Source of the DNA: Bacteroidota bacterium | Lineage (GTDB): Bacteria > Bacteroidota > Bacteroidia > Bacteroidales > VadinHA17 | DNA length: 38,443 nt | Assembly: GCA_030605195.1 (NCBI GenBank) | Contig: JAUWBB010000003.1 | Coordinates: 1 to 38,443, forward strand | Reading direction: 5' to 3' | Part shown: one piece after another, positions 19,517-24,384 of the stretch | How positions within the stretch are numbered: position 1 is the first letter of the stretch | Layout of the letters: each line of letters starts with the position of its first letter | Notes under the pieces: model-generated | Databases searched by the model: none | The model's input: only the letters and a program-made list of their open reading frames with translations | Told to the model about the DNA's origin: nothing | Made by a program: the position numbers and the translations under genes

Positions 19517-19799
19517 AGACCATCAATCATCTGTAAACCCATACTCATTTTTCCACTTCTTCATATTCTTCCGTAAAAGTTTTTCGTTTATGATGTGAGT
19601 CTTGATTTCTGATATAATTTCTTATAACGTCTAATTGTGAAGCACTTACTGAATATGCACCATATCCTCTTTGCCAGGCAAATTTCTCTCTTCTCTTCCG
19701 GTTTGTATAAATAATCCGGACGTTCTTACTCACACTTTTACGCTTCTTTTTACTTACAAACATAACCCTCCAAAATTCGGGACACCCAAGTTTAAACAA
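19517..19799 (-). pseudogene. IS200/RAYT-like Y1 transposase C-terminal fragment, frameshifted
   Basis: KFAWQRGYGAYSVSASQLDVIRNYIRNQDSHHKRKTFTEEYEE then +1 frame KKWKNEYGFTDD*; N-terminal HUH region absent. Confidence 0.8.
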
Positions 19800-20880: not shown

Positions 20881-22135
20881 TTATATCCCCAATTCTTTTA
20901 AATATTTGTTCATTTCACTTTTTACCACTTTTAATTCCTTTTCCAGCTCCTCGATTTCTCTCTGAACAGCAGGAATATCTACCTCTTCCTTTTCTTCAAA
21001 AGTGTCCACATATATTGGAATATTAAGGTTATATTCGTTTACATTAATCTCATCAATGTTTGCCCGGTACGAGTATTTATTTATAGTTTCAAACTTTTTG
21101 TATGTAGCTACAATATAGTCAATATTTTTATCCTTCAGTTTATTCTGATTTTTACCATCCTGGTACTCACGGCCGGCATCAATAAACAACACATCCTGTG
21201 TCTCTTTTGCTTTTTTAAAAATCATAATGGCAGCCGGAATACCTGTACCATAAAACAATTTTGCAGGTAGTCCGGCCACAGCTTCCAACAGGTTTTCGTC
21301 AATAAACTGTTTGCGGATTTTCCCTTCTGCCCCTCCTCTGAAAAGCACTCCGCGAGGGACAATTACTCCAATTTTACCGTTTATATCCAAAGCGCTTTCA
21401 ATCATGTGAGTGATAAAAGCATAGTCTCCCGTACTCTTTGGTGGGATGCCTCGCCAGAAACGGTTGAATTTATCAGCCCCGGCATTTTCAGCGCCCCATT
21501 TGTCGAGTGAAAACGGAGAATTGGCAACCACAATATCAAACTTCATTAATTTGTCATCCTCAATCAACTTTGGATTATTAATGGTATCGCCCCATTCTAA
21601 CTTTGCATTATCTTTTTGATGCAAAAACATATTCATTTTACACAATGCCCAGGTACTTCCATTGCTTTCCTGACCATACAATGAGAAATCTTCAGATCCT
21701 ACTTCATTTGCCACTTTGATTAACAAAGACCCTGATCCACATTCAGGATCATAAAACCGGTTACCCGGTTGAGGGTTAAGCAGTTTAGCCAACCACATGG
21801 ATACTTCGGCGGGTGTGTAAAATTCATCACCCTTTTTACCTGAATCACCTGCAAAACGGGCAATAAGATATTCGTACGTATTACCAATTATATCCTGATT
21901 GCCAATGTGTGATGGTCTCAAGTCGAGATTTGTATCTGCCTAATGCTCTTTTCACTCTTACCTCATCGCCACTATACTTGATTCTGTAATCTTCCTCTTT
22001 GTCTTTCCACACATCACTCAAGTATTTCAAAAACAGAAATACCAGAATGTAATTTTTATATTCAGCAGGATCGACCACTCCGCGAAAAGTATCGCATGCT
22101 TTCCAGGCTATTGCATTTATTTCATTTTGATTCAC
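20881..22135 (-). pseudogene. hsdM: Type I N6-adenine methyltransferase (hsdM) with internal deletion and frameshift
   Basis: ORF 21881..22135 gives MNQNEINAIAWKACDTFRGVVDPAEYKNYILVFLFLKYLSDVWKDKEEDY...RVKRAL; other frame resumes ADTNLDLRPSHIGNQDIIGNTYEYL..., skipping the usual intervening segment. Confidence 0.87.
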
Positions 22136-22162
22136 TTTTGGCTATATAAATGTTATTTTAAT

Positions 22163-22250
22163 GTATCGGAATTTACTCTCCGCCTCCCGATAGTTATCGG
22201 GATGGCGGATCATGAGATCACCCCGATAGCCATCGGGGCTAAGTTCAATG
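22163..22250 (+). repeat. 88-bp modular palindromic repeat, copy 2
   Basis: gtatcggaatttactctccgcctcccgatagttatcgggatggcggatcatgagatcaccccgatagccatcggggctaagttcaatg. Confidence 0.92.
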
Positions 22251-22257
22251 TTTTGAG

Positions 22258-22312: not shown

Positions 22313-22407
22313 TAAAGTTGTTTTTACGTTACAACCGTCTTATTCCGTTCTGCTGTTTCAATTGATTTTACAAAGATGGAAACTAATTCACCACATTCTT
22401 TTACATG

Positions 22408-22431
22408 ATGTCAGGTGTTTCCACCTGACAT
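22408..22431 (-). repeat. REP-like hairpin A (10-4-10), GAAA loop on minus strand
   Basis: atgtcaggtg tttc cacctgacat. Confidence 0.88.
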
Positions 22432-22465
22432 TGAATACTGGAGTAATTAAAATTTTGCTCATTAA

Positions 22466-22489
22466 CTGTCGGATGGAAACATCCGACAG
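22466..22489 (+). repeat. REP-like hairpin B (10-4-10), GAAA loop on plus strand
   Basis: ctgtcggatg gaaa catccgacag. Confidence 0.9.
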
Positions 22490-22540
22490 CATAGTAAACG
22501 ATGAATCATTTTTAGACCGACTTTATTATTTATCATTTGT

Positions 22541-22556
22541 CCCGATAGCTACCGGG
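22541..22556. repeat. Solo CCCGATAGNNATCGGG-type palindromic module
   Basis: cccgatagctaccggg. Confidence 0.6.
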
Positions 22557-22752
22557 ATCGAAATTTTGCCTGCCAAAGGCATTCTCCCAAAGGGATTCCT
22601 TCGGAGCTTCGGAAGAAGGCATCCCTTTTCCCGGGGGGATCTCTTTGAGAGGGAGAAATTTATTTTGCCAAAGGCATCACTTTCTGAGATATTTGAGGCT
22701 TGGTTATTAAAATTTCCGGTTAACCCGGTTAGGGATGAAGCAAAGGATTTTA

Positions 22753-22760
22753 TAACTTTG
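22753..22760 (+). promoter_or_regulatory. Candidate Bacteroidetes -7 element TAACTTTG upstream of transporter
   Basis: Matches TAnnTTTG; 37 nt before ATG; no clear -33 element. Confidence 0.35.
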
Positions 22761-22797
22761 CAGGCTGAATTCGTAAAGGGTTTGATTGTACCGTCTT

Positions 22798-24384
22798 ATG
22801 GAATTGTTATCCAATAGTTATTTCGCCCTGTTTCTGATCATTTCTTTGGGTTTTATTCTTGGTAATATCAGAATTAAGGGAATTTCGCTTGATGTATCAG
22901 CAGTTATATTTGTAGCCCTGGTTTTTGGACACTTTGGTGTTCAGGTGCCAATAGATTTTCAGAACATAGGCCTTTTGCTCTTTATATTCACCATTGGCAT
23001 TCAGGCAGGTCCGGGATTTTTTCAATCGTTTAAAAAGAGTGGGGTACAACTGGTTTTGATGCCAATTGTCCTGATCCTTGTTGCCGGTCTTTCAACAGCC
23101 ATTCTGGTTATTATCTTCCGGATAGATTCAAAAATTGCTGTGGGTCTGTTTACCGGCGCCTTAACCAGTACTCCGGGATTGGCTGCTGCAATCGATAGTA
23201 CAAATTCCTCCCTGGCATCCATAGGTTATGGTGTTGCTTATCCATTTGGGGTAATTGGCGTAATATTGTTCGTCAGGTTTTTACCCAAACTATTGCATGT
23301 AAATACCGAGACCGCTGAAAAAGAAATAAAAAAGAAAACCCTGGAAGAATATCCCGAAATAATAGGCAAGAATTTCATAGTAGAAAACCAGATTATTTTT
23401 GGGAAGACCATAGGTGAGCTTAATATACGGTCAATGACCGGTGCCAGTATCTCCAGGGTTTTAACGGAAACATCTGCAATTGCACCTTCTTCAGAAACAA
23501 CTTTAAATAAAGGCGATTTAATCAAAGCCGTTGGAACAGAAGAGGCTCTTGAAAAAATAAAACTGCTCATCGGATCAGAAACCAACCAGGAAATACCGTT
23601 AGGTAAAGATTATGAGGTCCAGTCTATTCTGGTTACAAACAAAAAAGTAATCAATAAAACCATCGGACAACTGAACTTGCTGTCCGGTTATAATGCTACC
23701 ATCACCAGGATCCGCAGGAGCGGTATCAATATAACACCATCCTTCAGCTCTCACATTCGCTTTGGTGATAAACTAATGATTGCCTGCGACAAGGAAAACA
23801 TGAAAGGAGTAATCCGTCTTCTGGGGAATGACAATAGAAAACTATCAAACACCAATTTCTTTCCTATTGCCGCAGGAATTGTACTGGGAGTTCTGCTAAG
23901 TAAAATAAAAATCAGTTTTTCCGATAGCTTTACTTTCAGTCCGGGTCTGACCGGGGGCGTTTTAATCGTTGCATTGATTCTTGGATATTTTGGAAAAACA
24001 GGTCCTGTTATCTGGACCATGTCGGGAAATGCAAATCAACTATTACGACAACTGGGCTTGTTGTTTTTTCTTGCAACCGTAGGTACTCATGCAGGTGAAC
24101 ATCTGGCAGATACTTATCATGTTTATGGTATTAAGTTATTTTATATCGGGGCGATCATAACGGTAATACCAATGTTTGTAAGTGCCTTATTTGCTCATTA
24201 TACCTTTAAGATGAATATTTTAATCATTTTAGGGGTCTTAACGGGAGGTATGACCAGTACACCGGGTTTAGCAGCCGTAGACTCTATGACGGAGACCAAT
24301 ACCCCGCACGTTGCCTATGCAGCCATATACCCTATCGCAATGGTATTTATTATTATTTGTGTACAGATTTTAACTCTTATTTAG
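22798..24384 (+). CDS. AspT/YidE/YbjL-type transporter with central TrkA_C-like domains
   Basis: Duplicated membrane halves each with GxLTxxxxSTPGLAAA/V motif (GALTSTPGLAAAIDST; GGMTSTPGLAAVDSM); start at Met 5 of ORF. Confidence 0.9.
   Translation: MELLSNSYFALFLIISLGFILGNIRIKGISLDVSAVIFVALVFGHFGVQVPIDFQNIGLLLFIFTIGIQAGPGFFQSFKKSGVQLVLMPIVLILVAGLSTAILVIIFRIDSKIAVGLFTGALTSTPGLAAAIDSTNSSLASIGYGVAYPFGVIGVILFVRFLPKLLHVNTETAEKEIKKKTLEEYPEIIGKNFIVENQIIFGKTIGELNIRSMTGASISRVLTETSAIAPSSETTLNKGDLIKAVGTEEALEKIKLLIGSETNQEIPLGKDYEVQSILVTNKKVINKTIGQLNLLSGYNATITRIRRSGINITPSFSSHIRFGDKLMIACDKENMKGVIRLLGNDNRKLSNTNFFPIAAGIVLGVLLSKIKISFSDSFTFSPGLTGGVLIVALILGYFGKTGPVIWTMSGNANQLLRQLGLLFFLATVGTHAGEHLADTYHVYGIKLFYIGAIITVIPMFVSALFAHYTFKMNILIILGVLTGGMTSTPGLAAVDSMTETNTPHVAYAAIYPIAMVFIIICVQILTLI

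Follow-up and report, generated by a model that had tools for sequence, protein, structure and literature searches.

A REPIN-like paired-hairpin element dispersed in a Bacteroidota genome, with target duplications at some insertion sites

Introduction

Two short hairpins of opposite orientation lie between a pair of divergent genes in a 38,443-nucleotide stretch of DNA from a Bacteroidota bacterium of the VadinHA17 lineage (assembly GCA_030605195.1, contig JAUWBB010000003.1, positions 1 to 38,443, forward strand; hereafter the window), and their arrangement raises the question of whether they form a REPIN-like mobile element and, if so, how such an element inserts. The original prediction, made from the letters of the window, took them for a REPIN or BIME mobilised by a RAYT transposase. 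RAYT cleavage has been studied in vitro, and how REPINs are disseminated is, by one account, poorly understood (PMC8266576). In the Bacteroidota family described here, which has a different tag, insertion scars can be read from the sequence and compared with an orthologous empty site; this makes the insertion chemistry testable from sequence and purified enzymes, and flanking duplications of 5 to 31 bases offer a clue to how REPIN-like elements move.

The hairpin pair and its surroundings

Hairpin 1 (ATGTCAGGTG-TTTC-CACCTGACAT, 22408-22431, plus strand) and hairpin 2 (CTGTCGGATG-GAAA-CATCCGACAG, 22466-22489, minus strand) are each 24 nt long with a perfect 10-bp stem and a 4-nt loop, and they face opposite ways 34 bp apart, exactly as had been predicted. 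None of 200 dinucleotide shuffles did as well with either RNA or DNA folding (z of -8.0 and -7.0); the folding of these hairpins is not due to chance. The arm of hairpin 1 is of the CAGGTG type, while the inverted hairpin 2 has a CGGATG arm and carries its TTTC loop on the minus strand. Each hairpin has a tetranucleotide tag, ATGA directly 5′ of hairpin 1 (22405-22408, plus) and ATGC at hairpin 2 (22489-22492, minus; GCAT on the plus strand). The window has no match in Rfam.

Judged by the consensus and lengths of 57 complete copies, the core of the element in the window spans 93 bp (22403-22495) and reads ACATGA, hairpin 1, spacer, hairpin 2 and GCATAGT. The 34-bp spacer (22432-22465) represents a 4-bp deletion relative to the family, most members of which have 38 bp between their 24-nt hairpins. 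The core is bordered by TT on the left (22401-22402) and AA on the right (22496-22497; TT on the other strand), both of which are probably derived from the target. This copy lies within a larger mosaic repeat that it shares with several other copies: the upstream part (22330-22400) is found in full at loci L017, L020 and L023 and as its 5′ portion only at L018, and the downstream part, extension B (22498-22539), which begins the larger mosaic repeat, also follows the copies at L017, L018, L019, L021, L022 and L025. The flanks of the window copy hold no target duplication, and no orthologue of the locus was found in the assembly of a congener.

The genes on either side encode an N6-adenine DNA methylase (20881-21921, minus strand) and an Asp-Al_Ex permease (22786-24384, plus strand), which diverge from the element between them. 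A 151-aa open reading frame that crosses the element (22362-22817) matches no Pfam family and is probably not a gene. The window also contains a second dispersed repeat with CCCGATAGNNATCGGG palindromes (22151-22253), of which the congener has about 25 or more matches, and a decayed Y1 TnpA fragment (19551-19760, minus strand).

A dispersed and genus-restricted family

The host genome (G000) is a 3.04-Mb metagenome-assembled genome of 393 contigs that is 83.5% complete, and it was compared with a second assembly from the same genus (G001; metagenome-assembled genome CSMAG_1571, labelled Bacteroidota bacterium) that is 74% complete. Copies were counted by pattern searches and from individual stretches of the genomes. 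The pattern TGTCNGRTGNNNNCAYCNGACA matched 119 times in the host genome and its reversed control not once, an asymmetric pattern for the right end matched 62 times, and a pattern for the left-type hairpin matched 80 times in the host and 22 times in the congener. The pair in the window is one copy of a dispersed element with about 60 copies in the host genome, which disposes of the two outcomes that were to have counted against the original prediction, namely an absence of other copies or their presence as single terminators only.

Among the 57 complete copies compared, most from the host and some from the congener, the core (ACATGATGTC...GCATCGT, comprising ACATGA, hairpin, spacer, hairpin and GCATCGT) measures 97 bp in 54, and its two ends together make an imperfect terminal inverted repeat. 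Solo hairpins exist as well, along with compact inverted pairs whose spacers measure 2, 5-8, 25 or 30 bp; nearly all the pairs listed combine a CAGGTG-type arm with a CGG[A/T]TG-type arm. Of 164 hairpins, 157 carry the ATGN tag directly 5′ on the strand with the TTTC loop. Across 27 distinct hairpins, 94.2% of stem cells are paired compared with 87.3% after shuffling, and two-sided stem changes occupy 23 cells against 7.6 expected (0 of 500 shuffles), figures that are biased upward because a minimum of 6 out of 9 stem pairs was part of the criteria by which the hairpins were chosen. With that bias, the compensatory stem differences claimed for the window pair are borne out across the family.

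In an order-wide genome sample that did not list the congener, a generalised tagged hairpin matched 134 times in the host and at most once in any other genome, with only three single matches outside the genus. One of the genomes from the same family but another genus has a single copy at a site in common with the host, just after a TAG stop (L124, L212). The tagged hairpin is thus essentially confined to one genus, and viral contigs and plasmids yielded no copies of the element. Copies lie mostly between open reading frames, and where both neighbours could be identified these were tandem in 22 cases, divergent in nine and convergent in seven, so the copies show no preference for gene 3′ ends. 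Intrinsic termination, which calls for a hairpin and T-tract at gene 3′ ends, was considered and rejected on these orientations and on a terminator scan.

Several structural variants accompany the family. About one copy in three is followed by a third end-like module, ATATCGAACTCACGTTAA, which also stands inverted on the left of some (L038, L089, L136, L223 and others). Five half-elements (L223, L224, L234, L237 and L249) end at one internal point, between CATATCATT and AA, with L224 ending one base later, which might be an alternative cut site. In a subfamily at L057, L065, L077, L078 and L109, an insert with CCTGTCTGCCTCAGG makes the left-hairpin loop larger.

Insertion footprints and target duplications

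Direct repeats abutting the element and scoring at least 8 flank 12 of the 57 copies, compared with 0.3% of 674 shuffled flank pairs; two of the 12 are the same site on two contigs, leaving at least 11 sites. Exact repeats measure 31, 17, 16, 16, 15, 12, 9 and 8 bp, and imperfect ones, with mismatches, 29, 16 and 11 bp, while shorter repeats of 5-6 bp rest on evidence other than the flank score. The 17-bp repeat lies outside an added module, extension A, that ends in CGAACTCACGTT. With few exceptions the repeats start with AA and end with TT. Across the 57 copies, TT stands at the left junction in 53 and AA at the right junction in 45, and because TT also closes the second copy of the duplication, the junction TT appears to derive from the target. 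Roughly three quarters of copies, including some identical to the consensus, have no recognisable duplication.

Comparison with uninterrupted sites shows that the element, about 97 bp long, was inserted whole and that some insertions duplicated target DNA. At L035, the orthologous empty site on contig C95 of the congener (L240) holds one ACTTTAGTGATAATTT, whereas in the host two copies flank the element, a direct comparison that identifies this flanking repeat as a 16-bp target-site duplication. At L036 the element lies within a repeat. Relatives of that repeat without the insertion hold one AAATT, and these paralogous empty sites imply a 5-bp AAATT target duplication. Target duplications of at least two different lengths are thereby shown, and flanking repeats put the overall range at 5-31 bp. 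In two further cases the element interrupts a coding sequence and the resulting halves overlap by the flanking repeat: a reading frame at L041 (NIAEGY and GYSKRS, a motif that we take to be of the four-helix-bundle type) and a TnpA remnant at L008.

The empty site at L035 is the only clean orthologous one. No usable empty-site locus was found in the congener for L002, L030, L041, L101 or L026, the loci corresponding to L031 and L044 are rearranged there, and those corresponding to L089 and L104 carry other sequence where the element sits. At L104 the difference points to the loss of about 45 bp of target, a change that may have run in either direction.

The search for a cognate enzyme

Each of the two genomes encodes several Y1 proteins, and RAYT-like genes are present in both. 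Three Y1 proteins of the host were scanned, and all match the model for REP-associated tyrosine transposases, in one case with a score above the curated cut-off. The RAYT-like genes whose flanks were read have palindromes of their own (AGCCGTGCCACGG, TCGTCAGACGA, AAACCCTAAGGG and others), and none of the Y1 or RAYT-like loci inspected in the two incomplete assemblies has a hairpin of the element beside the gene. Neither a Y1_Tnp search of both genomes nor family-wide RAYT homology revealed a gene bounded by element hairpins, and the open reading frames examined between neighbouring copies, in an incomplete genome, included no such gene and no recognisable transposase. The cognate RAYT sought in the light of the original prediction was therefore not found beside element hairpins in these incomplete assemblies, and the predicted mobilisation by RAYT is unsupported. 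Other Y1 genes here resemble the motif of subclass 1.2 (WQ, YIKNQKEHH), a group of Cyanobacteria and Bacteroidetes that generally lacks typical terminal structures (PMC6006769).

Proposed mechanism and alternatives

The element, with two inverted 22-nt hairpins that each bear an ATGN tag and together form an imperfect terminal inverted repeat, is probably a non-autonomous REPIN-like mobile element inserted at TT nicks by an enzyme supplied in trans. An endonuclease would cut 3′ of TT on both strands, beside the tagged hairpins as well as at the target; because overhang polarity is not readable from sequence, a cut 5′ of AA would describe the event equally well. The two target nicks would be set independently, giving a variable stagger, and fill-in would then leave an AA...TT duplication of variable length, no duplication, or a small deletion, of which L104 may be an example. 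The leading guess for the agent is an HUH Y1 enzyme, either a RAYT or a subclass 1.2 TnpA, because TnpAREP shows dinucleotide-specific cleavage 5′ or 3′ of the REP hairpin, at CT in E. coli and at CT or CA in Marinomonas (PMC8266576); this assignment is an analogy, not a demonstration. Since IS200/IS605 transposition leaves no large target duplication (PMC2817692), duplications made by a Y1 enzyme would need an undescribed mechanism. As a more tentative generalisation, REPIN-like elements might be insertable by double-strand staggered nicks, with one hairpin-recognising nuclease cutting 3′ of TT on both strands and producing freely variable duplications, a mode of insertion for which no description was found in the open-licence literature on REPINs or HUH transposases.

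The same anatomy would be seen if the element were a canonical REPIN whose single-copy RAYT is missing from the assemblies and whose flanking repeats record occasional repair during insertion. The inverted arrangement of tagged hairpins, their occurrence singly and in pairs, confinement to one genus and covarying stems are all consistent with this, as are the RAYT-like genes in both genomes and the completeness of the assemblies (83.5% and 74%, with copies often at contig ends). The account is nevertheless unlikely: the GTAG/GGAG tag is absent, the RAYT-like genes with flanks read carry other palindromes and none of this family, and the direct repeats, mostly AA...TT, lie far above chance. A second alternative is a MITE of a DDE insertion sequence, comparable to those of one subgroup of the IS1202 family, whose target duplications are long (16-28 bp; PMC10132070). 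In common with MITEs of this subgroup, the element is short and non-autonomous, its terminal inverted repeats are imperfect, and its flanking repeats often measure 15-17 bp (five sites). However, a MITE of this kind would be expected to have one characteristic duplication length, whereas lengths from 5 to 31 bp occur within this one family; solo units and 2-bp-spaced pairs are not MITE-like, a hairpin at each end and covariation are left unexplained, and the open reading frames examined between neighbouring copies in an incomplete genome include no autonomous element or matching transposon with the same ends, which together make such an origin improbable.

Two further explanations have very little to recommend them. 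A role in bidirectional intrinsic termination or mRNA stabilisation, with copies arising by duplication and not by mobility, would suit strong hairpins in intergenic DNA, and the copy after a stop codon is conserved in two genera; against this highly improbable reading stand the mixed orientations of neighbouring genes, the absence of the window hairpins from the terminator scan, and an orthologous empty site with a duplication. The least probable of the explanations is an RNA-templated, target-primed insertion of a short transcript in the manner of eukaryotic SINEs, which would produce variable-length duplications with a junction between TT and A and some end-truncated copies, but truncation occurs at both ends, several copies have one common internal end point, and the symmetrical tagged hairpins are left unexplained.

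Relation to known elements

The REPINs and BIMEs of Pseudomonas and E. coli are among the known systems nearest to the element. The likeness extends to two tagged, inverted REP hairpins with a spacer, fixed in length in the dominant subfamily, and to high copy number, a mostly extragenic and lineage-specific distribution, solo units beside pairs, and covarying stems, so that much of the predicted REPIN or BIME identity stands, without RAYT mobilisation and without the GTAG/GGAG tetranucleotide 5′ of the hairpin. Known REPINs carry the tag GT[AG]G, whereas the tag here is ATGN; here there are two distinct arm types (CAGGTG and CGG[A/T]TG), and no cognate RAYT was found in the incomplete assemblies. 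REPINs are also expected to insert as IS200/IS605 elements do, with no target duplication, but duplications flank the present element at at least 11 sites, two of them confirmed by empty sites, while most copies have none. Target duplications of variable length, seen here as flanking direct repeats that are mostly AA...TT, are not described for REPINs or RAYTs in the open-licence literature. The element is REPIN-like in anatomy and not a proven REPIN.

IS200/IS605 elements share with the present family hairpin-bearing ends, a cleavage site beside the hairpin and a short cleavage motif, but they lack terminal inverted repeats as well as large target duplications (PMC2817692). The statement that REPINs are rarely described in Bacteroidetes was a fair one: in the open-licence literature, the survey of TnpA Y1 proteins mentions only "atypical secondary structures" beside the Bacteroidetes genes of subclass 2.6 (PMC6006769). 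That subclass comes from the same phylum and likewise has genome-dispersed palindromic repeats, and genes resembling it in length and in the YIHQNP motif are present in both genomes; the palindromes beside them (for example AGCCGTGCCACGGTT...AACCGTGGCACGGCT) nevertheless differ from the element hairpin. The RAYT-like genes, of which each genome has several (L052, L292, L293, L294, L296, L050 and L053), are flanked by palindromes that differ from gene to gene, a pattern that suggests multiple REP systems in one genus.
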